DNA of 64,000 nucleotides from Pseudoalteromonas sp. MM1 (lineage in GTDB: Bacteria > Pseudomonadota > Gammaproteobacteria > Enterobacterales > Alteromonadaceae), in NCBI RefSeq assembly GCF_030296835.1, contig NZ_AP027922.1:3596001-3660000 (forward strand), given 5' to 3'. Positions within the stretch are counted from its first letter, which is position 1. Each line of letters opens with the position of its first letter. Below, one piece after another: positions 26,931-43,681 of this stretch. The notes under the pieces were generated by a model, which saw only the letters and a program-made list of their open reading frames with translations, did no database searches and had not been told where the DNA came from. A program made the translations under genes and the position numbers.

Positions 26931-28730
26931 TTACGGCGTTACTTTTTCATCAGCGGTAGTTACTAAGTCTGCCGCAAAGTCCATTACATGAAATAAAAAG
27001 CTTTGCTCATTTGTGCCTGTTACTAAATGAGCGCCTGGGCCCATGGCGTATACGCCAACATCTTCACCTGCGTGAGTTTCTGAGCCAAGTGGTACAAGTG
27101 CCTCTTGGTGAAAGCCCGGTGCAGTTGTTTCAACATCGGTTAAATCTACACGCCCTGTAACAGGTGCAAATGCATAACCTGCATCGGCATCGGTTTCATC
27201 GCCTAAATCTCTAAAGCCGCCACCGTTGGTGTAGCCAACTGTGGTGTACGGCATATCGTCGGCAGCTAGGCTTGGCTCGGTTTCCCCTACGGCAACAACT
27301 TTACCTAGTATTGGGTTACCACGTTTAGGGTAGCCTGCAATAGTAAATACGTGGCTGTGATCGGCAGTAACCACTATGAGCGTTTCTTCTGGGTTGGTGT
27401 TTTCCATTGCCACTTGCACAGCTTTTGCAAACTCTACGGTGTCGTTTAGGGCATTGTAGGCATTACCCGCATGGTGCGCATGGTCAATACGCCCCGCTTC
27501 TACCGATAAGAAAAAGCCATTGTCGTTGTTATCAAGCACGTTGATTGCTTTTTCGGTCATTTCGCTAAGTGAAGGCTCGCCCGCTACATCGTTTGCGCGG
27601 TCGGCTTCGTATTGCATGTGCGATTCGTTAAACAAGCCAAATACTTTAGTGGCATCGTCACTGATTGCATCAAAACCGGTTTGGTCCATAACGTATGTAC
27701 CGCTTGGGTAAGCTGTTTGCCACTCGGTTATTAGGTTGCGGCCATCAGTACGGTCGCCTTCTACTGCGCTTACTGCATCGGCTGAGTTTGCTGCTTCATC
27801 TTTTGGTAAAAAGTGACGACGTCCGCCGCCCATTACAACATCAATGCCATCTACATCAATACCCGTATAACGCGACTCTAAGTTGGCTTCAAAGTTTACT
27901 AGTTGCGATGCAATATCTTCACAGGCTTCTGTGCCCTCTGGCATATCTGAGTTATCTTCCCAGTTACGGTCAGCCGATTTAGCATACGTTGCTGCAGGTG
28001 TTGCATGGGTAATACGTGCGGTTGAAATAAGGCCGGTTGCTTTACCCGCTATTTCAGCAAGCTCTAACGAGGTAACGAGTTCGTTGCCTGCTACCGTTGA
28101 GCAGTTACCGCGTTCAATGTCTTCATCTACACCAATTACGCCCACATCAGTTTTAACACCTGATACCATTGCCGTCATTGTCCCTGCTGAATCCGGCGTT
28201 TGTGCATCTACGTTGTAGGTTTTAACAAAACCTGAGTAAGGCATTTTTTCAAAGCTTAACTGGTAGTCTTCACCTAACCCGCCTTCAAGCTGGCCTGCTA
28301 AAATTCGCGCAGCTGTTACGGTAGAAATACCCATGCCATCGCCCACAAATAATATTACGTTTTTTGCTTTGCCCGACTCGGTAACTATATTTTCACTGGC
28401 TTGCTGCGCTTGTGCAAGTTGCTCTTGTGCCCCGCTAAACCATGCGTTGCTTGTTAGAGATGCAAGTTGTTCGCTGGTAAGTGATGTAGCAGGTGCATTA
28501 CATACTAAATTAGAAGAGGTAACTTCGTCGCTATCTAGCACGCCGTTGCCGTTTGTATCTACGCCGGTTTGAGTTTCTACACCGCCATTAACACATTGCT
28601 CTGAGCCTACTGCAATGGTGTTATCTACCGCGAGAATATTATTTTCGTCTTTGTCGTCGTCACTGCAACCTGCTAGCGCGACCATTACTGCTAAAGAAAG
28701 TACTGTTAATTTGTTCATGTTAGCCGCCAT
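26931..28730 (-). CDS. Alkaline phosphatase, lipoprotein form
   Basis: The protein has 599 residues. A lipobox ALAGC gives lipid anchor at Cys22 (start at the ATG that overlaps the upstream stop as TAATG; Met5 is a weaker alternative). Residues about 40-85 form a small Cys-containing module with CVNGG and DTNGNGVLDSDEV, a calcium-loop-like DUF7151-type domain common in marine lipoproteins. The phosphatase domain begins at KNVILFVGDGMGISTVTAAR. PDSAGTMTAMVSG holds the nucleophile Ser. GRIDHAHHAGNAYNAL and TADHSHVFTIAGYPKRGNP carry the metal-binding Asp/His. It is the second of two tandem paralogues and probably faces outward or the periplasm. Confidence 0.92.
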   Translation of the reverse strand: MAANMNKLTVLSLAVMVALAGCSDDDKDENNILAVDNTIAVGSEQCVNGGVETQTGVDTNGNGVLDSDEVTSSNLVCNAPATSLTSEQLASLTSNAWFSGAQEQLAQAQQASENIVTESGKAKNVILFVGDGMGISTVTAARILAGQLEGGLGEDYQLSFEKMPYSGFVKTYNVDAQTPDSAGTMTAMVSGVKTDVGVIGVDEDIERGNCSTVAGNELVTSLELAEIAGKATGLISTARITHATPAATYAKSADRNWEDNSDMPEGTEACEDIASQLVNFEANLESRYTGIDVDGIDVVMGGGRRHFLPKDEAANSADAVSAVEGDRTDGRNLITEWQTAYPSGTYVMDQTGFDAISDDATKVFGLFNESHMQYEADRANDVAGEPSLSEMTEKAINVLDNNDNGFFLSVEAGRIDHAHHAGNAYNALNDTVEFAKAVQVAMENTNPEETLIVVTADHSHVFTIAGYPKRGNPILGKVVAVGETEPSLAADDMPYTTVGYTNGGGFRDLGDETDADAGYAFAPVTGRVDLTDVETTAPGFHQEALVPLGSETHAGEDVGVYAMGPGAHLVTGTNEQSFLFHVMDFAADLVTTADEKVTP

Positions 28731-30313
28731 TATTGCTGAGTTAGTTCAAGAGCTTGATTAATTAAATGAAATACTACGTTTTGCTCAATTACGCCTTGAG
28801 CTAGCTGAGCGCCTGGGCCTTTTGCATGCAGCGAAATATCTTCACCAGCATGCGTTTCTGAGCCAAGCGGGATAGTGGCTTCTTGGTGAAAGCCAACATT
28901 GGTAGTATCAACGCCTGTAAGCTCTACACGTCCAGCAACTGGGCCAGTTGTATATGCTGCATCGGCATCTGTTTCATCAACTAAATTTCTAAACCCTAAG
29001 CCATTTGCATAGCCTACTGTGGTGTAAGGCATATCGTCGGCAGCAAGGCTTGGTGTGGTTTCACCTACGGCAACTACTTGACCTAAAATTGGGTTACCGC
29101 GTTTAGGGTAGCCAGCAATCGTAAATACGTGGCTGTGATCGGCGGTGACTAAAATAAGGGTTTCTTCTGGGTTGGTATTATCTACTGCAGCTTGTACGGC
29201 TTTAGCAAATTCTATGGTGTCGTTAAGTGCGTTGTAGGCATTGCCCGCGTGGTGTGCGTGGTCAATACGGCCCGACTCAACCGTTAAGAAAAAGCCGTTT
29301 TCGTTTTTACCTAATACGTCAATTGCTTTGCTGGTCATTTCGCTAAGTGATGGCTCGCCGGCAATATCGTTTGCGCGGTCTGCTTCGTATTGCATGTGCG
29401 ATTCGTTAAATAAACCAAATACTTTAGTAGCGTCGTCAGCAATGGCATCAAAGCCTGCTTGGTCCATTACATAAGTACCTTGTGGGTATTGAGTTTGCCA
29501 TTCAGTAACTAGGTTACGTTCATCAGTACGATCGCCTTCTACCGCGCTAAGTGCATCAGCTGAGTTAGCTGCTTCATCTTTTGGTAAAAAGTGACGACGT
29601 CCGCCACCCATAACAAAATCAAGGCCGTCTACGTCGGTACCTACAAAACGTGCTTCTAGGTTTTTTTCAAAATTAACTAATTGCGAGGCAATGTCTTCAC
29701 AGGCGGTTTCGGTTTCTGGCATGTCTGAGATATCTTCCCAGTTACGGTCTGCCGATTTAGCATAGGTTGCCGCTGGCGTTGCATGGGTAATACGCGCTGT
29801 TGAAATAACACCGGTTGCTAGGCCTTTAATCTCGGCAAGCTCTGTGGCTGTTAACAGCTCATTACCCGAGACAGTTGAACACACACCGCGCTCTATGTCT
29901 TCGTCTACACCAATAACACCTACATCGGTTTTAACCCCTGAGATCATCGCGGTCATGGTGCCTGCAGAATCCGGTGTTTGTGCATCTACGTTGTATGTTT
30001 TTACTTGTGCTGAGTACGGGAACTCTTCAAAGCTTAAATAACCTTCTTCACCTAAGTTGCCCGCTCTTTGCCCTTGTAAAATACGTGCTGCGGTAAGGGT
30101 AGATACACCCATACCGTCGCCTACAAACAAAATAACGTTTTTAGCTTTTGTTGCTTGTTCACTTTGTGCAAGCGCAGTTTTTGTGGCGAGTGTGGTTTGG
30201 GCATTTGTATACCAGTCATTGTCTGTTTGGCTTTGTGGTAATACATTGGCATGGCTTGCAGTACTTAACATAAACGTTAAGCCAACTGCCGCAGCAACTT
30301 GTTTAATTTTCAT
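28730..30313 (-). CDS. Alkaline phosphatase, soluble form
   Basis: The protein has 527 residues with a signal peptide ending SHA22 and no lipobox. The alkaline-phosphatase fold is shown by KNVILFVGDGMGVSTLTAAR, PDSAGTMTAMISGVKTDVGV with the nucleophile Ser, GGGRRHFLPKDEAANSAD, ESGRIDHAHHAGNAYNAL and TADHSHVFTIAGYPKRG. It is closely similar along its length to the downstream gene, differing mainly at the N-terminus. It releases phosphate from monoesters in the periplasm. The downstream gene's start overlaps its stop (TAATG). A Pho-box-like repeat lies about 120 bp upstream. Confidence 0.92.
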   Translation of the reverse strand: MKIKQVAAAVGLTFMLSTASHANVLPQSQTDNDWYTNAQTTLATKTALAQSEQATKAKNVILFVGDGMGVSTLTAARILQGQRAGNLGEEGYLSFEEFPYSAQVKTYNVDAQTPDSAGTMTAMISGVKTDVGVIGVDEDIERGVCSTVSGNELLTATELAEIKGLATGVISTARITHATPAATYAKSADRNWEDISDMPETETACEDIASQLVNFEKNLEARFVGTDVDGLDFVMGGGRRHFLPKDEAANSADALSAVEGDRTDERNLVTEWQTQYPQGTYVMDQAGFDAIADDATKVFGLFNESHMQYEADRANDIAGEPSLSEMTSKAIDVLGKNENGFFLTVESGRIDHAHHAGNAYNALNDTIEFAKAVQAAVDNTNPEETLILVTADHSHVFTIAGYPKRGNPILGQVVAVGETTPSLAADDMPYTTVGYANGLGFRNLVDETDADAAYTTGPVAGRVELTGVDTTNVGFHQEATIPLGSETHAGEDISLHAKGPGAQLAQGVIEQNVVFHLINQALELTQQ

Positions 30314-30527: not shown

Positions 30528-32954
30528 TTAAAAACGCGCCTTAAACGATACGCCAAAGTAGCGCTCGGCATCACGCGGAATTTGGTAACGGAAGTTATCG
30601 CCACTGTAGGTTGTTGCATAGCTTTCATCGGTTAAGTTTTTAGCAATAAGCGACACTCTAAATGCATCATCTTTAAACGATAAACCTACACTGGCATTTA
30701 AAATACCGTAATCTGGTAATAATGCCGCTGGGTTAAACTCGCCTACATTATTTGGTAGGTCTGAGTATTGCTCGTCGGTGTAAATGTAAGAGCCGTTAAT
30801 ATGAATATTAAAATCGTGCTCTGTTTCAATAAAGTAATCGGCGCTTAGTGAGTATTTTAAATCTGGCGAAAAAGGCACATCTAAGCCAGAGCGGTCAGTA
30901 CATGAGCCTGCTTCTACTTCTGCCGGACAATTAAACTCGTCAATTTCAGCTTTAATATACGCAATGCCACCGGTTAAAGTGAGTGAATCGGTAGCCGCCC
31001 ACATAAAGTCAACCTCAGCACCTTGCGTGCTTACATCACCCGCGTTTGTTAAGCGAGTAATACAGGTACCGTCTGAACAGTCAAAGTTATTGGCTTGAAA
31101 ACCTTCAATTTCGGTTCTAAATACAGCAAAGTTAAATACAAACTCGCGGCTTGCGTATTTATAGCCTAACTCGTACGCGTCTGACTCTTCTGGAGCAATT
31201 TCGCGGCTGTCGTTATCAGGGTTAAAGTTGTAGTACACGTTAAAACCAGGGCCTTTGTAGCCTTGTGAGTAAGTACCATATACCATTTGGCCATCGCCTA
31301 AATCGTATTGCATACCTAAACGACCCGACACGTTGGTTTCTTCTGCACTGCCTGATTCGTCAGTATTTAGTGCTGCTGAGCGTACACCTACACCGGTGCG
31401 GCCAAACTCATCATTGCTGATACGGCGGTGTGTGTACGACACTTCATCGTCGGTATAACGAATACCAAACAGTACACGTAAGTCTTCAGATAAATCGTAA
31501 GTACCATCGGCAAAGGCTGCCCAGTTGTTAAACTCGGTGCTCATGTATGCGGTTGCCGAAACAATATCGTTAGCATTACAGCTTACACCTAGGCTTTGCG
31601 TGTAAGTGTCTAAATCGGCCAATGCTGCATCAAGCTCTGCACCGGTTAAGTTATTTTGCGCGTAATACGCCATGGCAGCGTCTAGCTGGCCTGCATTATT
31701 TTGACAACTCGCGTCACGGGTAAAGTTACGTTGCGAGTCCATGTTCCAGTAAAATAAACCAGCCACATAGTTAAACGGACCTGCTAGGTTTGAGGTCACT
31801 CTAAATTCTTGCGAAAACTGATCCCACTGCTGGGCACCTAAATCGTGTAATTGAAAAGGCACGCCAAATACAGGTTGGTTACTGTCGCCAGCAATCGAGG
31901 TAAAGTCGCCTTCGCGGTATTCGGTGTTATCCCACGAGCGCTGCGCTGTAATTGAGGTATAGGTGTAGTCGCCAATAGTTTTATCAACCTGTACCGAAAA
32001 CGCACTGTGTTCATCAATTGTGCGCGACTCATAGTCGTGATCCACTTTACGTTGGTCTAGGTCTATATCGGCTACGCCATCAACAATGCCGTTACTGTCT
32101 GGCGCGGCTTGCGAATCTGGGTTACGGCCGCTTGGTAGGGCTTCTAAATCGGCACAACAGTCGTCGTCGGCGTTATAAAATTCGGCAATAAATTTAACGT
32201 TTAAGTCATCGCTTGGCTCGTATTTAAATACAGCACGTGCCCCTTCGCGGTCATAGCCGTTTACTTTTTCGTTGTTGTAAACGTTATCAATGTAGCCATC
32301 AAACTTACCTTTAAATACGGTTAAGCTTGCTGCTAAATCGTCGGTTAAACCACCGCTTACAACGCCTTTAAAGCGGTATTCGTTATCTTGATAAAACGAA
32401 GTTTCTACGCTGCCGGTGGTATCGTACGAAGGATCTTTGGTTGTAATGTTTACTACACCTGCAGAGGCATTTTTACCAAATAAGGTACCTTGTGGGCCGC
32501 GCAGTACTTCAATGCGAGACACATCGTATAAATCGGCAAAGGCTTGACCAGAGCGGCCAAGTACCACGCCATCAACTACGGTTGCCACACTTGGCTCAGC
32601 TGCAATACTAAACGAAATAGTACCAATACCACGTACCGTTAGCGCTGAGTTACGAGTTGTGGTGCCTTTTCTAAAGCTCACCGAAGGCACAAGTGACTGT
32701 AAGCCTTCCATGTTATTAGCAAATGCCGAATCAATCTGATCGCTATTAAGTACAGACACCGCAAGCGGTACTTCGTTTAGGCTTTGCGTTCGTTTTTGTG
32801 AGGTAACAACAATTTTTTCAAACTTATCGTTATCGTTTTGCTCTGCTTGTTGCTCTGTTTGCTCTTGCTGCGCATGTGCTTGCGTGCTTAGTGCTAAACC
32901 CGTTGTTATTGCTAACGTGACTGCCAAGCTTAAGACGGACTTTTTAGCTCTCAT
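30528..32954 (-). CDS. TonB-dependent receptor of the sulfonate-glycoside locus
   Basis: The start at 32954 is chosen because GGAG lies 6 bp upstream; the TTG at 32966 overlaps that ribosome site. The product is about 808 residues. A signal peptide ends about AHA, followed by a Gln/Glu-rich linker and a TonB box-like KIVVTSQKR. The plug shows LTVRGIGTISFSIAAEPSVA, SRIEVLRGPQGTLFGKNASA and a long barrel ending YFGVSFKARF. Six Cys lie in extracellular-type loops (DDCCADLE, NNFDCSDGTCITR), which may be disulfides. It has its own terminator and a GntR-operator-like palindrome upstream, and the neighbours suggest a sulfonated sugar glycoside ligand (inference). Confidence 0.9.
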   Translation of the reverse strand: MRAKKSVLSLAVTLAITTGLALSTQAHAQQEQTEQQAEQNDNDKFEKIVVTSQKRTQSLNEVPLAVSVLNSDQIDSAFANNMEGLQSLVPSVSFRKGTTTRNSALTVRGIGTISFSIAAEPSVATVVDGVVLGRSGQAFADLYDVSRIEVLRGPQGTLFGKNASAGVVNITTKDPSYDTTGSVETSFYQDNEYRFKGVVSGGLTDDLAASLTVFKGKFDGYIDNVYNNEKVNGYDREGARAVFKYEPSDDLNVKFIAEFYNADDDCCADLEALPSGRNPDSQAAPDSNGIVDGVADIDLDQRKVDHDYESRTIDEHSAFSVQVDKTIGDYTYTSITAQRSWDNTEYREGDFTSIAGDSNQPVFGVPFQLHDLGAQQWDQFSQEFRVTSNLAGPFNYVAGLFYWNMDSQRNFTRDASCQNNAGQLDAAMAYYAQNNLTGAELDAALADLDTYTQSLGVSCNANDIVSATAYMSTEFNNWAAFADGTYDLSEDLRVLFGIRYTDDEVSYTHRRISNDEFGRTGVGVRSAALNTDESGSAEETNVSGRLGMQYDLGDGQMVYGTYSQGYKGPGFNVYYNFNPDNDSREIAPEESDAYELGYKYASREFVFNFAVFRTEIEGFQANNFDCSDGTCITRLTNAGDVSTQGAEVDFMWAATDSLTLTGGIAYIKAEIDEFNCPAEVEAGSCTDRSGLDVPFSPDLKYSLSADYFIETEHDFNIHINGSYIYTDEQYSDLPNNVGEFNPAALLPDYGILNASVGLSFKDDAFRVSLIAKNLTDESYATTYSGDNFRYQIPRDAERYFGVSFKARF

Positions 32955-33053
32955 GTCATTCTCCAAATTGTGCGTGTGTGCTGTTAAATTACCGCGTTAG
33001 CAAGTGTGTGGGTTGCTAAAAAGCGGTGCCAGAGTGTTGTAGGTATTTTCCTT

Positions 33054-33082
33054 ATATCTCTTATGTCTTATATAAGAGATAT
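33054..33082. promoter_or_regulatory. Operator-like inverted repeat upstream of the TonB receptor (site A)
   Basis: Core TCTTATATAAGA (33066-33077) is a perfect palindrome. Wider arms ATATCTCTTAT and ATAAGAGATAT are also exact complements. The core resembles the GTCTT-TA-AAGAC sites upstream of the GH31 and the reductase genes. Confidence 0.6.
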
Positions 33083-33166
33083 AAACTTAAACAAACTTAT
33101 CTTCTATTGCAAACATTATGTGAATAAAATGTGATTTAAAATTTGTATGTAGAATATAAAGCCGCG

Positions 33167-34903
33167 TTATGCTCTCTCTAAGCCAATATGCGCCAAGCTG
33201 CTTGTGTAGCGTTTATGCCATCGGCGTACGCTCCACCAGCTAAGCACAAAGGCGCTAGTCCAAACGGCAACTAAGCTCGGTACAAAGTACACGCTAATAC
33301 CACCAACAAGCCCAAGAGGAGAAAACAGTATGTACAGGCTTACAATTAAGCTCACTAATACAATGGCGCAAGGCAGGGCGTACTTCCACGGACTTAAGTT
33401 TACCTCGGCTTTGCGGGTAAATTTCCATGGTGTGGCAAGGGGTTTGTAATAACCAATACCTAACATAATGGCCAGCTCAATAAAGAACAAAATGGCGTAA
33501 ATATGGATAAAGTTAATATCTACATCCCACACAAATTTAAGCAAAGTGTAGGCAATAACATGAAAAACAATAGCCACTTTAGCGCCCAGTGCAGGCACTT
33601 TGCGAGTAAATAAACCCACTAACACAATTGTGATGACCGGAATGTTGTAAAATCCGGTAAATACACGAATTATGTGCCATAAGCCTTCTGGCGCAAACAT
33701 CAGTAATGGCGCAGTAATAAATGACAATATAGCAATTACAATGCTGGTTGTTTTGGCGACCTTAATTAGCTTTTCATCGCTTACTTTGTCTTTTTTCATT
33801 GGTTTGTAAACATCTAAACAAAACAATGTAGCGGCACTATTTAACAATGAATTAAACGAGCTAAATACCGCACCTAGTAGCACCGCTAAAAAGAACCCAG
33901 ATAAGTACTGAGGCAGTACATCTTTTACTAAATGCGGGTAAGCTAAATCTATGGTTTGTAAGCTTTCGTGCTTATAAAGGTGATACGCAATAACGCCTGG
34001 GATCATCATCATAAAGGGTACTAGCACTTTAAAGTACCCTGAAAACAACACGCCCTTTTGGCCTTCGACTAAGTTTTTAGCGCCCAATGTACGCTGGATC
34101 ACGTACTGATTTGTGCCCCAGTAAAATAAATTAGCGAGGATCATACCGGTAAAAATGGTGCCAAATGGCACGGGATCGTCACTGCTACCAATAGCGTTGA
34201 GCTTTTCGGTATCGGTGTTTACCAATGTACTTAAGCCATCGGCAAAGTTGCCATCGCCAAGGGCAATAAGGCCAAGTGTTGGCACTAAAATACCAATAAT
34301 TAATAGCCCAACCCCGTTAATGGTATCTGATACCGCAACCGCCTTTAAACCGCCAAATACCGCGTAAATAGCCCCCACGGAGCCCACAATAATAATGGTG
34401 ACAATTAAGCTTGCTTGGTAACTTAAATTTAATAGGGTAGGTACATCAAACAGCCTAAGAACGGCGATTGATCCTGAATACAAAACAGAAGGGATCGTTA
34501 TAAAACAATACCCTACCATAAATAAGATCACCGTCATGCGGCGTACGGTATCGTCAAAACGATCCCGTAAAAATTCAGGTAAGGTAGAAAACGCGCCGGC
34601 TAAATAGCGCGGTAAAAAGATCAGCGCCATTATAATGGTTGATACCCCAGCTGTTACTTCCCATGCCATTGAGCTTAGGTTGTAACCATACGCTGAGCCA
34701 TTAAGGCCAATAAGTTGCTCGGCCGATAAGTTAGTGAGGATCATTGACCCCGCTATAAATGTACCTGTTAAACCACGTCCTGCTAAAAAGTAGCCGTCTT
34801 GGGTGTTAACTTCCCCTTTGGTTTTTTGGTACGAGATATATCCTACTAGCGCCATAAACGCCAAGCACGATAGCAGTGTCATGGTAATGTTCATACCTTC
34901 CAT
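33167..34903 (-). CDS. Sodium/solute symporter of the SSS (SGLT) family
   Basis: The protein has 578 residues and 13-14 predicted helices. GRGLTGTFIAGSMILTNLSA and a FLPRYLAGAFSTLPEFLRDR segment are SSS features; the latter is the conserved R-Y-x-x-x-T-x-P-E-(F/Y)-L loop. FSSFNSLLNSAATLFCLDVY is the conserved TM8-type sodium-site region with Ser-rich residues. SGLT-type members carry sugars. It lies 92 bp downstream of the GH31 gene, separated by a hairpin at 34916-34948, and is probably cotranscribed with it at reduced level. It likely brings the periplasmic sugar product or glycoside into the cell. The start at 34903 has AGGGG at 6 bp. Confidence 0.9.
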   Translation of the reverse strand: MEGMNITMTLLSCLAFMALVGYISYQKTKGEVNTQDGYFLAGRGLTGTFIAGSMILTNLSAEQLIGLNGSAYGYNLSSMAWEVTAGVSTIIMALIFLPRYLAGAFSTLPEFLRDRFDDTVRRMTVILFMVGYCFITIPSVLYSGSIAVLRLFDVPTLLNLSYQASLIVTIIIVGSVGAIYAVFGGLKAVAVSDTINGVGLLIIGILVPTLGLIALGDGNFADGLSTLVNTDTEKLNAIGSSDDPVPFGTIFTGMILANLFYWGTNQYVIQRTLGAKNLVEGQKGVLFSGYFKVLVPFMMMIPGVIAYHLYKHESLQTIDLAYPHLVKDVLPQYLSGFFLAVLLGAVFSSFNSLLNSAATLFCLDVYKPMKKDKVSDEKLIKVAKTTSIVIAILSFITAPLLMFAPEGLWHIIRVFTGFYNIPVITIVLVGLFTRKVPALGAKVAIVFHVIAYTLLKFVWDVDINFIHIYAILFFIELAIMLGIGYYKPLATPWKFTRKAEVNLSPWKYALPCAIVLVSLIVSLYILFSPLGLVGGISVYFVPSLVAVWTSAFVLSWWSVRRWHKRYTSSLAHIGLERA

Positions 34904-34915
34904 CTTGCGCCCCTT

Positions 34916-34948
34916 TTAGCTTACTTTACTCGGTAAAAAGTAAGCTAA
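34916..34948 (-). terminator. 12-bp hairpin between GH31 and symporter genes
   Basis: TTAGCTTACTTT and AAAGTAAGCTAA are exact complements around a 9-base loop, with only a short A/T tail. It may attenuate transcription or act as an mRNA boundary, not a strong terminator. Confidence 0.55.
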
Positions 34949-34995
34949 TATCTTTATTATTGTGTGTGTTGTGTGTGTTTGCTATTTACCGAGTT

Positions 34996-37056
34996 TTATT
35001 TTGGCCATGCTGTTAGCTGGCTCATGTCTTGTTCTGTGTGTTGAACCTCTGGACCTAGCATGAGCGTATCGCCTTTACGAACAAATACGGCCATTTGTGT
35101 AAGCGCTAGTGTTTCTTCGTAATATTTTCCGCCTTGGTACGTTTGTGCATCTGGGAAGCGTACCCACTCGCCTTGCGGTAAATAAAATTTAATCTTACCG
35201 TTTGGTACTACACATGGCACCACAAGGAGTTTTTCGCCGCACATAAATTGCTGATCAAAACTATGTGCCAATACATCATCAGGAAATGCCAGTGCCATAG
35301 CACGCTGAATAGGCAACCCTGTTTGCTTTGATTGCTCTGCACATTCTTGTAAGTACGGAATTAACTGATAGCGTAATTTAAGCGCTGCAAATACCGCGTC
35401 ACTTGCTTGCTCGGTATATGACCACGGTTCGCGAGGGCCAATACCATGTAAACGCATGTGTGCACTAAATACCGACGCTTGCGCCCAGCGAACATAAAGC
35501 TCTGCATCGCGCGTATCTTTGTAAAAACCGCCAATGTCGGTTGCAAAAAATGGCCCGCCCGACATGCCCCACGCTAAGCTGCCGCGAATGCTCGCTGCTA
35601 AACCTTGCCAATCGGCCTGTGGGTCGCCGCCCCATTGTGCAGGGAAACGTTGGCTGCCAGTCCACGCTGAGCGGCTAAACAAAAATGGCCCCGTTTTACA
35701 GTATTTTTCGGCGGCTTCATAAACGCAGCGGTTGTATAACATGCTATAAACGTTGTGCAGTCTAATGCCGCTGTCGCCACTGTGCGATACCATGTTTTCG
35801 TCTTCTAGCTGTTCGCCAAAGTCTGCTTTTATCATATCTACACCAAGCTCAAATAATGGCTTGTGCGATTCGAGCCAGTATTCGTAAGCATCGGGATGAG
35901 TAAAATCTAAAATACCTGACTCTGGTAATGGCGTAAGTACTTCGCCAAATGGGCTTAAATCCCACTCGTATTGATACGCTTTACCTGTGCGTTTGTCTTT
36001 TATTAGCCAACCATTTTCGGCCGCTTTAGCAAATAATGGGTTGTTTACCGAGATCATTGGGTATTCCCACACGCAAATTTTAAAATCCATGGCTTTTAGT
36101 TCATCAAGCACAGGTTTTGGGTCGGCGTAACGTGTTGGGTCCCATTCAAAGGCAAAGCGGGTGTCGGTGTCTTGCCATGCGCGGCCATCAAGGGTAATTA
36201 CATCGCACGGCATGTTTTTAGCGCGTACTTCGCGGGCGACACTTAATAGCTCGTCGGCATCTTTGTAGTATGCTTTTGATAAAATAACACCAAAGCTCCA
36301 CTGCGGTGGTACCGGTGCAAAACCAGTTAGTTCGCAGTAGCGATTAATACTTTGTGCAGGCGTTTGCTCTTGGTATAAAAATACATCTAGCGCGTCGTCT
36401 TCTACTAAGCACACGTAAGCACGTTGCGACCAAAGCGCGTAACCTACGCCATGTGTAACGGGCGCTGGCGTGTGTACAAATAAGTTCCAGCCCTCTGGGC
36501 TCCACGCGTATGGTGTATTTTTATATGATTTTTCGGCGTTTACGCCCAGTGCATCGTGGTTGTATGAGCGAATAAGTTGGCCGCGTTTATCAAGCTTGCC
36601 CCACTTTTCGCCAAGGCCGTAAACGGCTTCGTCGTAATTAAGTTCTAGGCTTAAAACCCAGCCGTTATCGGTTTTAGCTAATGGCGGTAAGCGATGCTGG
36701 CGCACAAAGTGGCCATCGGTTGCTGATTGCTGTACTAATTTATCGTTTTTAAAAAGCTTAAAGTAAAACGGGTCGCTGTAAAATTCTAAGCGGTACTCAC
36801 CGGCTGTGGCTTCAAAGCCTTGGTCTAATTTATTGAGTGATAGCGGTAAGTTAGAAGGGGTGGTGGTTAATATTTTAAACGTCTCGTCATGCGTGGAGCC
36901 TGCATTTAAACGTAAACCAAACTGGCTTATGGTAACGCTAACCTCGCCAAATTGAGTCGGTAAAACTAGCACATGGCCTTGTAATTTAGGCTCTGCAGTT
37001 AAGCGTGCTGGCTCTATTGCGTTCCAGTCTGGCTCACGTAATTCAAATGCATTCAT
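34996..37056 (-). CDS. Glycoside hydrolase family 31 alpha-glycosidase
   Basis: This 686-residue protein has an N-terminal beta-sandwich and a TIM barrel of the GH31 family. DMIKADFGEQ gives the nucleophile Asp412, and WGGDPQADW the acid/base Asp478. FEWDPTRYADP, FKICVWEYPMISVNNPLF, WGMSGGPFFATDIGGFY and LRYQLIPYLQE are family motifs of the YicI-like group. No signal peptide is seen, so it is cytoplasmic. In characterised sulfoquinovosidases, the sulfonate is bound by Gln-Gln-Arg-Trp residues. Here the only clear counterpart is Arg300 in TRFAFEWDP, with Phe303 or Leu289 where Trp or Gln would be. Substrate is therefore open: a sulfonated glycoside is favoured by neighbours, an alpha-xyloside or glucoside by sequence. 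Ribosome site AAGGA lies 8 bp upstream. Confidence 0.9.
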   Translation of the reverse strand: MNAFELREPDWNAIEPARLTAEPKLQGHVLVLPTQFGEVSVTISQFGLRLNAGSTHDETFKILTTTPSNLPLSLNKLDQGFEATAGEYRLEFYSDPFYFKLFKNDKLVQQSATDGHFVRQHRLPPLAKTDNGWVLSLELNYDEAVYGLGEKWGKLDKRGQLIRSYNHDALGVNAEKSYKNTPYAWSPEGWNLFVHTPAPVTHGVGYALWSQRAYVCLVEDDALDVFLYQEQTPAQSINRYCELTGFAPVPPQWSFGVILSKAYYKDADELLSVAREVRAKNMPCDVITLDGRAWQDTDTRFAFEWDPTRYADPKPVLDELKAMDFKICVWEYPMISVNNPLFAKAAENGWLIKDKRTGKAYQYEWDLSPFGEVLTPLPESGILDFTHPDAYEYWLESHKPLFELGVDMIKADFGEQLEDENMVSHSGDSGIRLHNVYSMLYNRCVYEAAEKYCKTGPFLFSRSAWTGSQRFPAQWGGDPQADWQGLAASIRGSLAWGMSGGPFFATDIGGFYKDTRDAELYVRWAQASVFSAHMRLHGIGPREPWSYTEQASDAVFAALKLRYQLIPYLQECAEQSKQTGLPIQRAMALAFPDDVLAHSFDQQFMCGEKLLVVPCVVPNGKIKFYLPQGEWVRFPDAQTYQGGKYYEETLALTQMAVFVRKGDTLMLGPEVQHTEQDMSQLTAWPK

Positions 37057-37079
37057 GGGAGTTCCTTAACCAATTATTA

Positions 37080-37093
37080 GTCTTGTATAAGAC
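37080..37093. promoter_or_regulatory. Operator-like palindrome upstream of the GH31 gene (site B)
   Basis: GTCTTGTATAAGAC lies 24 bp upstream of the GH31 start. Its reverse complement GTCTTATACAAGAC is identical to site C at 39006. It sits where a repressor would block transcription or initiation. Confidence 0.75.
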
Positions 37094-37151
37094 ACAAGTT
37101 AAATAATTGTAATCCCCATGTCAACGTAAATAAACTCAAGTAAGTTTAAAT

Positions 37152-37919
37152 TTAAAATATGCTTGGTGCTGATGTTGCCACCAGCGAAACCCCACTTAAG
37201 CCCAGCAAGGTAATTGCTATTATACGAATCCATTTTGCATCAACATAAGGTGTTAACTTACGGGCAAATTGCGTTACCACTAACACCAGCGGTATGGCCG
37301 CTGCAATTAAAAACATAATATCGAGCTCAGGTAAGGTGCCAAATAGCGCAATGCCTACTCGCACTATGCCACCAATGGTAAATACCGCAAGTAACGTACT
37401 GCGTATGGCTTCAATAGACCAAGCTTGTTTATAGCACTGAAACACCAGCGGCGGTCCCGAGGTTGAAAATAGCCCACCTAGTAAGCCACTTACCCCGCCG
37501 GCAATTAAAAACGAGCCACGCCCGCTTTGCGTATTGGCTCTGTCACGACCAATTAGCATTAAGCCACAACATAGCAAAATACTAATACCTAAAATAAAGT
37601 TTAAAAATTGCGTTAAATGCGCCGACATATACTCAAGCAATATAAAACCTAACAGCATTAACGGAATACCGGTATACAACATAAGTTTAAGCTCGGGCAC
37701 TTTTACCGAGCTGCGGTTTTTTACTACTACAGTGGTTGAGTTAACCAAACCCAATAAGCTCACTAAAAAAGTAGTCGCGGTGAGCGGTAAAACATCTAGC
37801 AAGGTAAAGCTGGCAACCACCAACAACCCAAAACCAAACCCGCTAAGCGTTTGCATTATGGTGGCAAGGCTTAGGCACAGCGCCATAAGCAAGATGAGTT
37901 CTAACGAAATACTGAGCAC
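37152..37919 (-). CDS. TauE/SafE family sulfite/organosulfonate exporter
   Basis: The protein has 255 residues and eight predicted helices. The paired family motifs are TLSGFGFGLLVVASF in the first half and AGGVSGLLGGLFSTSGPPLV in the second, the G-G-x-x-G-x-x-x-x-S-G-P-P-L/x core of TauE/SafE. Family members export sulfite, sulfoacetate or related sulfur anions. Next to an Fe(II)/2-oxoglutarate dioxygenase it suggests that sulfite is made in the cell and removed. It is divergent from the GntR gene, and its own promoter lies in the 37920-38089 gap. Site B sits between it and GH31, so it is not transcribed with GH31 by read-through under repression. Confidence 0.85.
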   Translation of the reverse strand: MLSISLELILLMALCLSLATIMQTLSGFGFGLLVVASFTLLDVLPLTATTFLVSLLGLVNSTTVVVKNRSSVKVPELKLMLYTGIPLMLLGFILLEYMSAHLTQFLNFILGISILLCCGLMLIGRDRANTQSGRGSFLIAGGVSGLLGGLFSTSGPPLVFQCYKQAWSIEAIRSTLLAVFTIGGIVRVGIALFGTLPELDIMFLIAAAIPLVLVVTQFARKLTPYVDAKWIRIIAITLLGLSGVSLVATSAPSIF

Positions 37920-38017
37920 TTTAAATTTCCTAGATGTGCGCTATTGTAGTGTAACGATTTGTTTTTAGGCATAATGTAAAAACAAACTGTATTGCAATAG
38001 TTCACAATTAATTGAGC

Positions 38018-38035
38018 TTGCGCAAAGCTGCGCAA
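38018..38035. promoter_or_regulatory. Imperfect palindrome in the divergent TauE/GntR promoter region
   Basis: TTGCGCAAAGCTGCGCAA has two TGCGCAA half sites in inverted orientation, 55 bp before the GntR gene. It may be an autoregulatory or cross-regulatory site; no match to the A/B/C operator family. Confidence 0.4.
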
Positions 38036-38089
38036 AAGTTTTCACCTATGATATAAATACAGGTGGATTAAATTTAATGGTAAATAACA

Positions 38090-38839
38090 ATGAGTAACTC
38101 TATGTTTGATCACAAATTAAGTGGCCCAAGCTTGGCTTTTCAACCGCTTTACTTACAAGTGGCTGATTATATTAAACAGCTCATTGTTGAAAGACGCTGG
38201 GTGCCTGGTGAAGTACTACCAAGCGAATTTCGCCTTGCTGAAGAATTTAACGTAAGCCAAGGCACTGTTCGTAAAGCACTTAATTTATTAACTGACGATA
38301 AAATAGTTACTCGCCGCCAAGGTGTTGGTACGTTTGTATCTGAGCATACTGCGCAAGACGCCCTGTTTAGGTTTTTTCCGCTACAGGCCGATGGCAAAGG
38401 TGCCGACCTACCTAAAGCCGAGCTATTATCAGTTGAGCTTTGCCCTGCACCACAAGATGTTATAAACGCCTTACAACTTAATAAAAAAGACAAAGTTACT
38501 AAGCTTGTACGCAGACGTATTCTCGATAACGAATTTTGTATGAGCGAAACTATATACTTACCGCAAAGTTTCTTTCCTGATATACATCAAAGTAGTGATA
38601 TTCCGCATACATTGTACCATTACTACCAAACCAAATTTAACCAAACCGTACATAAAACCCAAGACAGTATTAAAGCGGTATTAGCGGATGAAACCGATGC
38701 TAAAATGCTGGCTATAAAAACCGGCGACCCACTGTTATTGGTATCGCGCATTACCGAATCAATCGAAGGTAAACGTATTGAATACCGTTTAAGTAAATGC
38801 CGTAGCGATCATTACCACTACCAAATTGAACTTGATTGA
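38090..38839 (+). CDS. GntR-family (HutC/UTRA) transcriptional regulator of the locus
   Basis: The protein has 249 residues. The N-terminal GntR winged helix is clear: YLQVADYIKQLIVERRWVPG, EVLPSEFRLAEEFNVSQGTV and RKALNLLTDDKIVTRRQGVG. The C-terminal UTRA effector domain (VTKLVRRRILDNEFCMSETI, DAKMLAIKTGDPLLLVSRIT) binds small sugars or acids in this subfamily. A tiny upstream ORF, ATG at 38077, overlaps its start and may couple translation. Three palindromes of one type flank this gene's neighbours and are the likely operators. It is probably a repressor released by a sugar or sulfonate ligand, which is inference. A strong terminator follows. Confidence 0.9.
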   Translation: MSNSMFDHKLSGPSLAFQPLYLQVADYIKQLIVERRWVPGEVLPSEFRLAEEFNVSQGTVRKALNLLTDDKIVTRRQGVGTFVSEHTAQDALFRFFPLQADGKGADLPKAELLSVELCPAPQDVINALQLNKKDKVTKLVRRRILDNEFCMSETIYLPQSFFPDIHQSSDIPHTLYHYYQTKFNQTVHKTQDSIKAVLADETDAKMLAIKTGDPLLLVSRITESIEGKRIEYRLSKCRSDHYHYQIELD

Positions 38840-38896
38840 TTCACCGCGTTGAAACGCTGATTATTTATATTAGCGCACACTTATTAAATATTTTTT

Positions 38897-38920
38897 AAAG
38901 GCAGCAAACGCTGCCTTTTT
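38897..38920 (+). terminator. Rho-independent terminator after the GntR gene
   Basis: AAAGGCAGC and GCTGCCTTT pair around AAAC with a T run. It separates the regulator from the reductase-dioxygenase operon. Confidence 0.9.
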
Positions 38921-39005
38921 GCTGCCTGCAGGTTTTTTAACCTAACCATTTACTACTTAAGCGTTAACACAGTGTTGACACTGTTAGATTCGTATAATAA
39001 CTTAT

Positions 39006-39019
39006 GTCTTATACAAGAC
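39006..39019. promoter_or_regulatory. Operator-like palindrome upstream of the reductase operon (site C)
   Basis: GTCTTATACAAGAC lies 35 bp upstream of the aldo/keto reductase start, directly after a TATAAT -10 at 38993-38998, so binding would block initiation. It is the exact reverse complement of site B. Confidence 0.75.
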
Positions 39020-39053
39020 CTAAGTCATTATGCAATTTTAACAGGAATTCCCA

Positions 39054-40016
39054 ATGAGTTCATTAAATAACATCCCGCCAGTCGGGTTCGGTTTATGGAA
39101 AGTAGCACAAGAAGACTGTGCACAAACGGTGTACCAAGCCATTAAAGCAGGCTACCGCCACCTTGATTGCGCATCAGACTACGGCAACGAAGAACAAGTT
39201 GGCGATGGCATAGCCCAAGCAATTAAAGACGGCCTTTGTACTCGCGAAGAATTATGGGTTACGTCAAAACTATGGAATACGTTTCATGCGCCAGAGCATG
39301 TAGAGCTAGCCATTGATAAAACCTTGAGCGATTTAAAGCTCGATTACCTCGACTTATACTTAATTCACTTTCCGATTGCGCAAACGTTTGTACCAATCGA
39401 AACTCGCTACCCACCAGAATGGTTTGTAGACCCAGATGCACAAAACCCACAAATGGAGCTGGCAAAAGTGCCGCTACACTTAACGTGGCAAGCAATGGAA
39501 GAGCAAGTACACAATAACAAAACAAAGCGCATTGGTGTGTGTAACTACTCAAGCGCATTACTTCACGATTTAATGACCTACGCCACAATTAAACCCGCCA
39601 TGCTGCAAATTGAATCGCACCCATATTTAACGCAAGAGCGCCTAGTAAGGCTTGCCAAACAGTATGACATTCCGGTTACGGCGTTTTCACCGCTTGGTGC
39701 GCTTTCGTACCTTGAACTTGAAATGGCCGATCAAACTGAGTCGGTACTTGAGCAAAGCGTAGTAAAAGCTGCGGCGCAAAACCATGGCAAAACACCCGCA
39801 CAAGTTGTGCTGCGCTGGGGCGTGCAACGAGGTACGGCCATTATTCCAAAAACCTCTAAATTTGAACGCATGAAAGAAAACCTCGCGCTGTTCGACTTTG
39901 AACTAACAGAACATGAAATGGCGCAAATTTCTGCGCTTAATAGCAACCGCCGTTTTAACGACCCTGGGCACTTTTGTGAAGCTGCCTTTAACCGTTTTCA
40001 CCCTATTTACGATTAG
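39054..40016 (+). CDS. Aldo/keto reductase
   Basis: The protein has 320 residues. The AKR tetrad is present: Asp38, Tyr43 (ASDYGNEEQ), Lys72 (VTSKLWN) and His105 (YLIHFP). The C-terminal NADPH-binding AIIPKTSKFERMKENL (Lys/Ser/Arg region) is also present. RFNDPGHFC near the end is a xylose-reductase-like feature. It catalyses NAD(P)H-linked aldehyde/sugar reduction in the cytoplasm. In the known oxidative sulfoquinovose pathway an AKR reduces 6-dehydroglucose to glucose, and this gene sits 9 bp before an oxygenase gene. That assignment is by analogy. An alternative is a general sugar aldehyde reductase. First gene of an operon with the dioxygenase and YeiH-type exporter. Confidence 0.88.
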   Translation: MSSLNNIPPVGFGLWKVAQEDCAQTVYQAIKAGYRHLDCASDYGNEEQVGDGIAQAIKDGLCTREELWVTSKLWNTFHAPEHVELAIDKTLSDLKLDYLDLYLIHFPIAQTFVPIETRYPPEWFVDPDAQNPQMELAKVPLHLTWQAMEEQVHNNKTKRIGVCNYSSALLHDLMTYATIKPAMLQIESHPYLTQERLVRLAKQYDIPVTAFSPLGALSYLELEMADQTESVLEQSVVKAAAQNHGKTPAQVVLRWGVQRGTAIIPKTSKFERMKENLALFDFELTEHEMAQISALNSNRRFNDPGHFCEAAFNRFHPIYD

Positions 40017-40025
40017 GATAATAAA

Positions 40026-41021
40026 ATGTCAGCTACCGAACTTAACTATGCCCAAGTGCCTACACAATTAACGTTTGATGACTCGGTTTTTCCGTGCATT
40101 GTGGTTAATAACAATAACGCCAGCACCGTTGAAGAAGCGGTAGCTTTTATTCGCGCTCACAAAAGTGAGCTGGCTAAAAAACTTCGCAGCTCAGGCGCTG
40201 TATTGTTTAGAGGCTTTCCTATTAATAGCGCCGAGACGTTTGATACGTTTTCAGCAGGGTTTGATTACGACAACTTTACGTACCAAGAGTCGCTATCTAA
40301 TGCGGTACGTATTAACTTTACTGAGCGTGTATTTACCGCTAACGAAGCCCCAAAAGATGTAGAAATTTACCTTCATCACGAAATGGCACAAACACCTATT
40401 TCGCCAAGTAAGCTGTTCTTTTTTTGTAAATCGGCAGCTGAAGAAGGCGGCGCAACGCCACTTTGTCGCTCAGATAAATTATTTAGCGCTTTAAAGCAGT
40501 TTGATAGCCAATTAGCCGATGATTTTGAGCAAAAAGGCTTAAAGTACACCACTTATATGCCCGCAGCCGACGATGCTACATCGGGCCAAGGCCGCAGCTG
40601 GAAAAGCACCCTAAGTGTTGAAACCAAAGACGAAGCGCACAGCAAACTTACCGAGCTAGGTTACGAGTGGGAATGGCTAGAAGATGGTTCTTTAAAAGCA
40701 ATTACCCCAGTTTTACCGGCTGTACTTACCCTTGAAAACGGCGTACAGGTTTTTTATAACCAACTTATTGCCGCTTATATGGGCTGGAAAGGCGTACGCG
40801 AAAACCCATCGGTTGCTATTACCTTTGGCGATGGCTGTGCCATTCCTAAACAAGGGCTTGAAAAAATTGTTGAGCTATCAAAAGACTATACCTTTGATTT
40901 AGCCTGGCAAGATGGCGATGTAGCCTTAGTAGATAACGAAATGGCGATGCATGGCCGCCGCCCATTTACAGGCGAGCGTAAACGCCAAGTGCTTGTTGCC
41001 CTTACGGCAGCTAACGCCTAA
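40026..41021 (+). CDS. TauD/TfdA-type Fe(II)/2-oxoglutarate-dependent dioxygenase
   Basis: The protein has 331 residues. The facial triad is His117, Glu119 (LHHEMAQ) and His309 (EMAMHGRRPF); Arg318 or Arg320 (GERKRQV) would bind 2-oxoglutarate. AAEEGGATPLCRS and GQGRSWKSTLS are features of the clavaminate-synthase-like/TauD group, close in motif to the plant protein At3g21360. Family members hydroxylate a carbon next to sulfonate or another leaving group, which for sulfonates releases sulfite. Next to an AKR, a sulfite-exporter type protein and a GH31, the most economical role is oxygenolytic desulfonation of a sugar sulfonate. The stop overlaps the next start (TAATG). A different substrate, such as an amino acid, is not excluded. 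Confidence 0.85.
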   Translation: MSATELNYAQVPTQLTFDDSVFPCIVVNNNNASTVEEAVAFIRAHKSELAKKLRSSGAVLFRGFPINSAETFDTFSAGFDYDNFTYQESLSNAVRINFTERVFTANEAPKDVEIYLHHEMAQTPISPSKLFFFCKSAAEEGGATPLCRSDKLFSALKQFDSQLADDFEQKGLKYTTYMPAADDATSGQGRSWKSTLSVETKDEAHSKLTELGYEWEWLEDGSLKAITPVLPAVLTLENGVQVFYNQLIAAYMGWKGVRENPSVAITFGDGCAIPKQGLEKIVELSKDYTFDLAWQDGDVALVDNEMAMHGRRPFTGERKRQVLVALTAANA

Positions 41022-42025
41022 TGCAAAGCTTAACCAGTACACTAAAAGTAAAAATTTCCCCATTATGGCAAGGGGCTAGCATTGCTGCAATGACGGGCCT
41101 TGCCGCTTTATTTTTAAGTGAACACTATGGCGCACCCGCTATGCTATTTGCTTTATTATTAGGCATGGCGGTGTCGTTTTTATATCAAAGCGACAGCCCA
41201 TGCGCTAAAGGCATAGACTTTACCGGCACCACGATTTTACGCGTAGGCATTGTTTTACTGGGCACACGTATTGCTTTAGGTGATTTAATTACATTGGGCT
41301 GGCAAACCGCTTTAATGCTAGCTGGCGCTATATTTACCACCATTATTTTAGGGGTTGTACTTGCCCGAGTATTTGGTTTACAAAAGCGCTTTGGCGCACT
41401 CACCGGAGGTTCAGTCGCTATTTGTGGTGCATCGGCAGCACTGGCTATTTCATCTATTATGCCTAATAGCGAGCATAAAGAGCGCGATACGTTACTGACT
41501 GTAATTGGCGTAACGGCTATGTCGACCATTGCAATGATTTTATACCCTATTGTGGTTAACTACCTTGAATTTGACGCCCACAACGCCGGGGTATTTTTAG
41601 GTGGCACCATACACGATGTTGCCCAAGTAGTCGGTGCGGGTTATTCGGTATCACCCGAGGCAGGCGATATAGCAACACTTACCAAGCTAGTACGAGTAGC
41701 CATGCTACTGCCAGTAGTACTTATTATGATGGTAGTGATTAACCGCTCAAATAAAGGTAACCATGGCGAGTTGCCAAAAGTACCCGGGTTTTTAATTGGC
41801 TTTGTTATTTTAATGCTTATTAACAGCACCTTTAACCTACCAGCTATCGTGCTCGAAACCGCTAACGAGCTTTCTCGATTCTTTTTAATAGCCGCCATAG
41901 CCGCCATTGGTATGAAAACAAACCTAGGCAAACTCACCGAGGTGGGCTTAAAGCCAATAATAATGATTGTTGCTGAAACAATTTGGATAGCACTGTTAAT
42001 ACTTGGCTTTGTATTGTGTAGTTAA
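41021..42025 (+). CDS. YeiH-type putative sulfate exporter family membrane protein
   Basis: The protein has 334 residues and about 10 predicted helices. TTILRVGIVLLGTRIALGD and the TIHDVAQVVGAGYSVS motif are marks of the YeiH/PF03601 family. GGSVAICGASAALAIS lies between them. YeiH members are annotated putative sulfate exporters, often with sulfur or sulfonate genes. The ATG overlaps the dioxygenase stop codon, so they are translationally coupled. With the TauE/SafE gene this locus has two candidate anion exporters, plausibly for sulfite or sulfate. Substrate not tested in this family to my knowledge. Confidence 0.82.
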   Translation: MQSLTSTLKVKISPLWQGASIAAMTGLAALFLSEHYGAPAMLFALLLGMAVSFLYQSDSPCAKGIDFTGTTILRVGIVLLGTRIALGDLITLGWQTALMLAGAIFTTIILGVVLARVFGLQKRFGALTGGSVAICGASAALAISSIMPNSEHKERDTLLTVIGVTAMSTIAMILYPIVVNYLEFDAHNAGVFLGGTIHDVAQVVGAGYSVSPEAGDIATLTKLVRVAMLLPVVLIMMVVINRSNKGNHGELPKVPGFLIGFVILMLINSTFNLPAIVLETANELSRFFLIAAIAAIGMKTNLGKLTEVGLKPIIMIVAETIWIALLILGFVLCS

Positions 42026-42640: not shown

Positions 42641-43681
42641 CTAGCCTTTTTTACCCTTATTAGCTATTGCTTTAAGTGCAGAAATATTTGCATTTTCCCC
42701 TTCAGCTTCTTTCAAACGGCGGCGTCTCTTTGCAAAATTATCAAACTCCAATTTTGCTTTATCATCTGCCGCTTTTTTAGAGATTGCCCCTGCGCCGCTT
42801 AAAACTTCACGATCATTAAAGCTCAAAAACTGATCAAGCTTATCAGCCCAGTCTTGTAAGAATACTTGCTTGCGCCGTAACGCTTGGTCTTCTGCAAAAT
42901 CAAGCCACATATTTACAATTCGATTCAGCTCTTTAATTTCATCTTCCCGCAGATAATTTTTAGCAACAGTGACGTCTGTTTTACGCACTTCATCACCTTT
43001 ATAACTGGTTAAGCCCATATCTGGCTTATTAGCATCTACACGGTTAGAAATAAGCTCAGCAGCCGTCATCTGCGTACAAGCATAGTGCAGCTTGTTCTGT
43101 ATAGTTTGAAAGAATCGATTAGTCTCTTGATTAGAGGGCTCATAGTCGGCAGCCATTGTAAAAATTTCTTTAGCCCGTAAATATACACGTCGCTCACTAG
43201 CTCGAATATCGCGAATGCGTTCAAGCATTTCATCAAAGTAATCAGGAACGGTAGAGTGTCCCACGGGAGGGTTTTTCAAACGCTCATCATCCATGGCAAA
43301 CCCTTTAACTAAATATTCTTTTAATATCCTAGTTGCCCATTGTCTAAATTGTGTACCTCGTTGCGAGCGAACCCTGTAGCCTACGGCTAAAATCGCATCA
43401 AGATTATAGTGATCGATTTCGCGAGATACCTGGCGAGTACCTTCTAACCGAACTATCCGGAATTTCCGGATGGTTGCGTTTTGTACAAGCTCACCTTCTT
43501 TGTATATATTGATCAAATGCTCATTTATAGTACGAACATCTTTGTCGTAAAGCTCCGCCATTACAGCTTGAGATAACCATAGGGTATCTAACTCAAAGCG
43601 ACATTCAACACGCGTCTGACCATCTGCGCTAGTAAAAAGAACAAACTCTCCTTGTGGAGCTTGAGGGATATGCTCTGCCAT
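42641..43681 (-). CDS. RhuM family protein
   Basis: The protein has 346 residues. The N-terminal part shows the RhuM pattern: LDTLWLSQAVMAELYDKDVR, then TINEHLINIYKEGEL, NYLDAILAVGYRVRSQRGTQ-type residues and FRQWATRILKEYLVKGFAMD. These resemble Bro-N/KilA-N-like DNA-binding modules. The C-terminal half is helical and Lys-rich. RhuM was named in Salmonella pathogenicity island 3 and occurs in mobile and defence regions. Function is unsettled. AAGG lies 8 bp before the ATG. It opens an accessory segment together with a HTH regulator and a KAP NTPase. Confidence 0.85.
   Translation of the reverse strand: MAEHIPQAPQGEFVLFTSADGQTRVECRFELDTLWLSQAVMAELYDKDVRTINEHLINIYKEGELVQNATIRKFRIVRLEGTRQVSREIDHYNLDAILAVGYRVRSQRGTQFRQWATRILKEYLVKGFAMDDERLKNPPVGHSTVPDYFDEMLERIRDIRASERRVYLRAKEIFTMAADYEPSNQETNRFFQTIQNKLHYACTQMTAAELISNRVDANKPDMGLTSYKGDEVRKTDVTVAKNYLREDEIKELNRIVNMWLDFAEDQALRRKQVFLQDWADKLDQFLSFNDREVLSGAGAISKKAADDKAKLEFDNFAKRRRRLKEAEGENANISALKAIANKGKKG

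Follow-up and report, generated by a model that had tools for sequence, protein, structure and literature searches.

Introduction

By what route, and with which enzymes, could a marine bacterium break down a sulfonated sugar when a glycosidase gene, a dioxygenase gene and a TonB-dependent receptor gene lie together in its genome? This question is raised by a locus of Pseudoalteromonas sp. MM1 (4.49 Mb in two contigs), at positions 30,528 to 42,025 of a 64,000-nucleotide stretch (NZ_AP027922.1, positions 3,596,001 to 3,660,000), referred to below as the window. Eight open reading frames (ORFs) are found there, and their Pfam families are those that the original prediction had named. As argued below, the locus is probably a regulon for the utilization of sulfoquinovose (SQ) glycosides that works like the sulfo-ASDO or sulfo-SDO pathway, with enzymes of a second lineage relative to the Marinomonas-type dioxygenase, SmoB-like aldo-keto reductase (AKR) and SqgA.

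A review gives SQ production as around 10 billion tons per year and describes the sulfo-ASDO pathway, with the enzymes SqoD and SquF, for Marinobacterium aestuarii (PMC12890257). Another aerobic route, sulfo-SMO (SmoABC), likewise releases sulfite and then employs a reduction by an oxidoreductase, but it uses a flavin monooxygenase where the window locus has a dioxygenase, and the AKR subfamily differs. Among the titles and abstract openings of the sulfoquinovose literature on Pseudoalteromonas and Alteromonas, no paper on this locus appeared; Alteromonas is mentioned in passing in PMC13372026, which cites Ma et al. 2025 for that genus. The latter work, according to a review, concerns GH188 in Roseobacteraceae and algae.

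Conservation of the gene set

A scan of named genomes returned 518 relatives of the dioxygenase, of which the best 80 were kept; 77 of these loci have a recognized dioxygenase ORF, and the remaining three (L099, L101 and L104) were dropped from the counts. The AKR gene lies immediately upstream of the dioxygenase gene in 70 of the 77 loci, and a YeiH gene immediately adjoins it in 43. The genes seen most often are those for AKR (71 loci), GH31 (45), YeiH (43), the TonB receptor (37), GntR (34) and the SSS symporter (31); TRAP transporters (15), which occupy the place of SSS in some relatives, and TauE (14) are less frequent. Among 295 genomes of the host's order, the GH31 gene (E ≤1e-130) was found in seven and the dioxygenase gene (E ≤1e-80) in nine; all seven possess both, no more than 7 kb apart, and the two genomes with the dioxygenase and without GH31 are G414 and G445. 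The conserved AKR-dioxygenase linkage, together with the operators described below, rules out chance clustering.

The four closest named matches of the dioxygenase are all from Pseudoalteromonas (93-98% identity), and the next are from Alteromonas (78%). The gene is present in a single copy, and a close orthologue was found in only two of 35 other genomes of the genus (G008 and G015; 98-99%), the rest giving at most 109 bits or no match. This sparse distribution marks the locus as an accessory trait.

A shared operator

Three palindromic sites of the form GTCTTRTAYAAGAC stand before the TonB receptor, GH31 and AKR genes. Within the window alone, allowing up to two mismatches, three sites against 0.69 expected are only modestly above chance, since 4 of 100 shuffles also reach three. 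The exact 12-base core TCTTRTAYAAGA, by comparison, is limited genome-wide to three occurrences, all of them in the locus, and a reversed control occurs nowhere. The operator is also kept across genera: with up to one mismatch, at least one site precedes the AKR, GH31 or TonB receptor gene in 39 of the 45 GH31-bearing loci, versus 9 of 35 without GH31 (all 80 relative loci counted). Taken gene by gene, the GH31-bearing loci have a site upstream of the AKR gene in 38 of 45, of GH31 in 24 of 45, and of the TonB receptor in 24 of 36. The shared operators that had been proposed are therefore real, and because the core is confined to the locus and the sites are kept in relatives, the three operator-linked units form one regulon. 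The GntR/UTRA protein would be its natural repressor.

Two lineages of dioxygenase and reductase

The full His-x-Glu...His triad claimed for the dioxygenase is present, as H117, E119 and H309 are invariant in an alignment of 20 sequences. The structural model of the enzyme is of middling confidence (pLDDT 73.9), and the segment that carries H117 and E119 (residues 85-125) falls below 50.

The relatives divide into two types. Clade A includes the dioxygenase of Marinomonas ushuaiensis (P0176), to which PDB entry 9yut is 68% identical; the window enzyme belongs to the other, clade B, with 32-37% identity to clade A over the alignment (33-39% by BLASTP). Arg95 and Arg148, found in 38 of 38 window-type dioxygenases, are replaced by Gln and His in 9 of 9 clade-A sequences. 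Clade A forms a single group that excludes the window enzyme (support 1.000 with nine sequences; ultrafast bootstrap 100 with 11). Rooting with SyrP-like proteins from the same genus failed, as these outgroups were too distant and scattered, and the tree was therefore built without them; all 24 clade-B sequences then lie on one side of a branch whose support is only 62.

The reductases differ as well. Six of the nine clade-A loci were found to carry an AKR from a different subfamily, and the window AKR shares only 21-23% identity with the clade-A AKRs, its best matches being xylose and aldose reductases (5zci and 1jez). For one clade-A AKR, the best PDB matches were 7bbz and 7bby, which are taken here to be SmoB, and SquF is presumed to be SmoB-like. 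By its PDB matches and its identity to the clade-A AKRs, the window AKR is not of this SmoB-like, SquF type.

Clade A was tied to the sulfo-ASDO pathway through M. ushuaiensis and not through an M. aestuarii sequence. PMC13219744 names M. ushuaiensis for the SQ dioxygenase pathway, and its SqgA stands among the representative SQ clusters in a figure legend of PMC10755693, which leaves the pathway unspecified. The window and clade-A loci have in common an Fe/2-oxoglutarate dioxygenase with an intact triad beside an AKR, a glycosidase, a GntR protein and a YeiH-type gene (five of the nine clade-A loci), as well as the predicted conversion of SQ to sulfite and 6-dehydroglucose, and of the latter to glucose. 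In contrast, the window locus carries GH31 in the place of the clade-A SqgA (in view in seven of nine), and an SSS symporter and TonB receptor instead of a TRAP transporter (eight of nine). Since the dioxygenase and AKR lineages differ, different enzymes appear to carry out the same chemistry, and it is suggested with moderate confidence that the locus encodes a new variant of the sulfo-ASDO pathway assembled in this manner.

Alternatively, the locus might encode the published pathway itself, with SqoD and SquF of M. aestuarii falling in the same clade as the window enzymes and nothing being new. In PMC13372026, the sulfo-SDO pathway is called characteristic of Oceanospirillaceae and Alteromonadaceae, and Vibrio ulleungensis is listed among the sulfo-SDO genomes. 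In the V. ulleungensis genome, the single TauD-family gene is of clade B and has no SmoB-type AKR in its vicinity; the closest one on the contig lies some 72 kb off and is 31% identical. As its sole TauD-family protein is of the window type, that type may already be counted as sulfo-SDO in print, or may even be the characterized one. However, the strain of PMC13372026 may differ from the genome examined here, and M. ushuaiensis, the species named for the pathway, has a clade-A dioxygenase. Furthermore, the clade-A loci carry SqgA and an AKR presumed to be SmoB-like, which fits the name SquF. That nothing in the window is new is accordingly considered rather unlikely, and the variant with enzymes of a second lineage is preferred.

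The glycosidase and its substitution by SqgA

By profile and sequence search, the window GH31 is closest to YicI and is not YihQ-like; it scores 436 bits against the YicI-type model PRK10658 of NCBIfam, below the cut-off of 606. Both catalytic residues, Asp412 and Asp478, are kept in all 41 members of its clade, and no signal peptide was seen on inspection by eye. Its likely role emerges from the loci that lack it. A GFO/IDH/MocA protein adjoins the dioxygenase in nine of the 77 loci, and the one compared (L107) finds its best PDB matches in 8qc3 and 8qc2 (E ~1e-98). PMC10755693 gives these depositions as ArSqgA and FlSqgA, which are NAD-dependent sulfoquinovosidases of family GH188. In a second survey, of 293 genomes from another order, 26 had the dioxygenase at E ≤1e-40, and larger regions were obtained from 20 of them. 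These comprise 11 loci with a window-type dioxygenase (two with GH31 and nine with an SqgA-like protein) and nine of the second type, seven with SqgA in view.

Across 88 window-type loci, 47 have GH31, 18 have a GH188 SqgA-like protein and none has both. The usual AKR is also present in 15 of the 18 SqgA-bearing loci, the exceptions being L089, L090 and L096. The active-site residues named for ArSqgA, eight in number and with the sulfonate contacts R166, L170 and K172 among them, are all present in 17 of these 18 SqgA-like proteins (the exception is L098), and equally in 7 of 7 SqgA proteins from the second-type loci. Because SqgA stands in the place of GH31, and was never seen together with it, the simplest reading is that GH31 performs the sulfoquinovosidase job. 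SqgA was not found in the genome of MM1 itself, where the best match has 22% identity.

The GH31 sequences offer candidate residues for such a role. All 41 clade members have Gly291-Arg292 and Tyr263 where YicI has Cys307 and Phe277, and around the C6-site positions of YicI, Arg292 and Arg300 are invariant and residue 261 is Lys or Arg. Relative to YicI, Cys307 has thus become Gly, followed by the inserted Arg292, while Phe277 is replaced by Tyr, Thr275 by Lys and Trp315 by Arg. Cys307 and Phe277 presumably close the C6 site in YicI.

Several observations nonetheless weigh against an SQ-specific assignment. The GH31 enzyme shares with YihQ the fold, both catalytic Asp residues and the equivalent of Gln288 (41 of 41), but equivalents of Trp304 and Tyr508 are found in none of the 41 sequences and that of Arg301 in only one; these four residues are assumed here to be the sulfonate-binding signature of YihQ. 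A YihQ-type sulfoquinovosidase identity is ruled out by these residues and the profile result, and the closest solved relatives, judged by sequence and by the structural model, are alpha-glucosidases and alpha-xylosidases. The distance of the dioxygenase from the M. ushuaiensis clade, with its clade-specific fixed sites, also counts against the assignment; the plant protein At3g21360 (PDB 1y0z), at 44% identity, is closer to the M. ushuaiensis dioxygenase than the window enzyme, at 32%. The SqgA-linked clade-B dioxygenases are approximately 50-60% identical to that of the window, so that the substrate would have to be extrapolated over this distance. Finally, neither glycosidase is in view in 23 of the 77 loci. 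Twelve of their genomes were selected for a GH31 search, and ten encode the enzyme elsewhere or beyond the stretch; a search for SqgA in seven neither-glycosidase genomes gave no match in six (E ≤1e-20) and, in a planctomycete, a 28% match with an internal stop. The two genomes with neither GH31 nor SqgA are both Vibrio; for V. ulleungensis, sulfo-EMP has been reported as well.

The same chemistry might instead act on another sulfosugar, such as sulfofucose or another 6-sulfo-hexose, or on an unusual SQ glycoside. Such a substrate would suit a divergent GH31 clade in which most of the YihQ signature is absent, a TonB receptor, which suggests a larger or rarer ligand, and the fixed differences between the two dioxygenase clades. 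Against this, in 17 loci with no GH31 in view a dioxygenase of the same type has as its neighbor a GH188-type protein that keeps the full set of eight SQ-pocket residues, and another sulfosugar is therefore regarded as improbable. Of the two possibilities raised by the original prediction, the comparisons thus favor a new version of the pathway and, with SQ as the predicted substrate, disfavor a new one. SQ glycosides are likely to be the substrate, and the mechanism is likely to be that of sulfo-ASDO.

Other genes at some of these loci were noted. A luciferase-like gene adjoins SqgA and the window-type dioxygenase at two loci where the usual type of AKR is absent (L089:2100-3209 and L090:4040-5140); it was not adopted as an SQ monooxygenase, as none of its 12 PDB matches is named as an alkanesulfonate or SQ monooxygenase. 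GlpD-like (glycerol-3-phosphate-oxidase-like flavin adenine dinucleotide) proteins lie beside YeiH or GH31 in two loci (L088:3061-4587 and L164:14068-15690) and may indicate that the aglycone is glycerol, and in L045 a GDSL lipase hints at a glycerol or lipid aglycone; these hints were set aside because they come from too few loci.

Predicted sulfite handling

Directly behind the YeiH gene, some relatives carry genes for a SorA-like molybdenum sulfite dehydrogenase (23 of 77) and a SorB-like cytochrome (22 of 77). One SorA-like protein that was scanned has Oxidored_molyb and Mo-co_dimer domains, and its best NCBIfam model is SorA, albeit at 236 of 600 bits and thus below the cut-off; one SorB-like protein reached 26 of 93 bits. 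Genes of this kind behind AKR, dioxygenase and YeiH are what a sulfite-releasing operon should contain. A PF00174 protein was looked for in the genome of MM1 and not found, and its exporters are therefore the likely exit for sulfite. Two relatives in which no YeiH was seen possess a SulP sulfate permease with a STAS domain (L159:5842-7635 and L164:11340-13070), a possible alternative exit for sulfite or sulfate.

These genes also bear on whether any sulfonate is cleaved at all. The locus could instead degrade an alpha-xyloside or similar sugar, with the dioxygenase modifying something else in the manner of SyrP, AmbD or At3g21360. In its favor, the GH31 sequence is nearest to that of YicI and the GH31 model nearer to those of glucosidases and xylosidases, the AKR is xylose-reductase-like, and some solved relatives of the dioxygenase are not known to act on sulfonates. 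Against it stand TauE and YeiH in the locus, the SorA-like genes of 23 relatives, the GH188-type proteins of 17 loci and the altered Cys307 and Phe277 positions of GH31, and it is judged most improbable.

Proposed pathway

SQ-glycoside utilization with oxygenolytic desulfonation is therefore retained as the preferred reading, and its reactions, substrates and transport directions are predictions from sequence. The TonB receptor and SSS symporter would import an SQ glycoside, from which the cytoplasmic GH31 would free SQ; the best candidate is sulfoquinovosyl glycerol or a related fragment of a glycolipid. The 2-oxoglutarate dioxygenase would then hydroxylate C6, whereupon sulfite would leave and 6-dehydroglucose form, to be reduced to glucose by the AKR. 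TauE and YeiH would export the sulfite, and the GntR protein would repress the three promoters through the one palindrome until substrate arrives. The sequence of import, glycoside cleavage, desulfonation, aldehyde reduction and sulfite export that had been predicted is favored by the GH188 substitution, the SorA-like genes and the single operator regulon.

With moderate confidence, the new elements are a divergent dioxygenase lineage, a non-orthologous reductase and a candidate second lineage of GH31 sulfoquinovosidases, all within one regulon. The fullest form of the proposal could prove either right or wrong with about equal probability: that marine Alteromonadales and some other bacteria possess a second assembly for oxygenolytic SQ breakdown, in which a distinct lineage of SQ dioxygenases, an aldose-reductase-type 6-dehydroglucose reductase replacing SmoB/SquF, and a xylosidase-side GH31 sulfoquinovosidase, its C6 pocket opened by replacement of Cys307 with Gly and insertion of an arginine, are united in one TonB-linked GntR regulon. 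In Pseudoalteromonas, Alteromonas, Paraglaciecola, Glaciecola and Arenicella, this set could be overlooked or wrongly assigned by surveys that rely on SmoB-like AKRs and YihQ-type glycosidases. If correct, a xylosidase-side sulfoquinovosidase would be a second answer, within the same fold, to the recognition of a C6 sulfonate, and it offers clear residues for study.

Coordinates and neighboring genes

Table 1. Genes and operators of the locus, in window coordinates.
Feature	Position	Strand	Details
TonB-dependent receptor	30528..32966	-	Pfam plug and barrel; predicted outer-membrane glycoside uptake
Operator upstream of TonB receptor	33065..33078		GTCTTATATAAGAG, one mismatch; 99 bp upstream of receptor gene
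SSS-family sodium symporter	33167..34903	-	SSF; NF007790, 731 bits vs cut-off 401; predicted inner-membrane uptake
GH31 glycosidase	34996..37056	-	Predicted alpha-sulfoquinovosidase; catalytic D412/D478; invariant R292, R300; K261
Operator upstream of GH31-SSS	37080..37093		GTCTTGTATAAGAC
TauE/SafE predicted sulfite exporter	37152..37919	-	PF01925
GntR/UTRA repressor, likely operator reader	38090..38839	+	PF00392 and PF07702
Operator upstream of AKR-dioxygenase-YeiH	39006..39019		GTCTTATACAAGAC
AKR, xylose/aldose-reductase type	39054..40016	+	PF00248; predicted 6-dehydroglucose reductase; best PDB 5zci, 1jez
TauD/TfdA-family Fe(II)/2-oxoglutarate dioxygenase (clade B)	40026..41021	+	PF02668; predicted SQ dioxygenase; triad H117/E119/H309
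YeiH-type exporter	41021..42025	+	PF03601; predicted sulfite exit

Adjoining the locus, at 26931-30313 of the window, are two tandem alkaline phosphatases (PF00245), the longer of which has a DUF7151 segment. On the other side, a RhuM-family gene (42641-43681) and a KAP-NTPase gene (45657-47132) match the PADLOC candidate defense families PDC-S05 and PDC-S20. The gene lists of the relative loci L033 and L034 contain neither of them at the corresponding position, and both genes therefore look strain-variable; L031 has there only a gene of the length of the KAP-NTPase gene.

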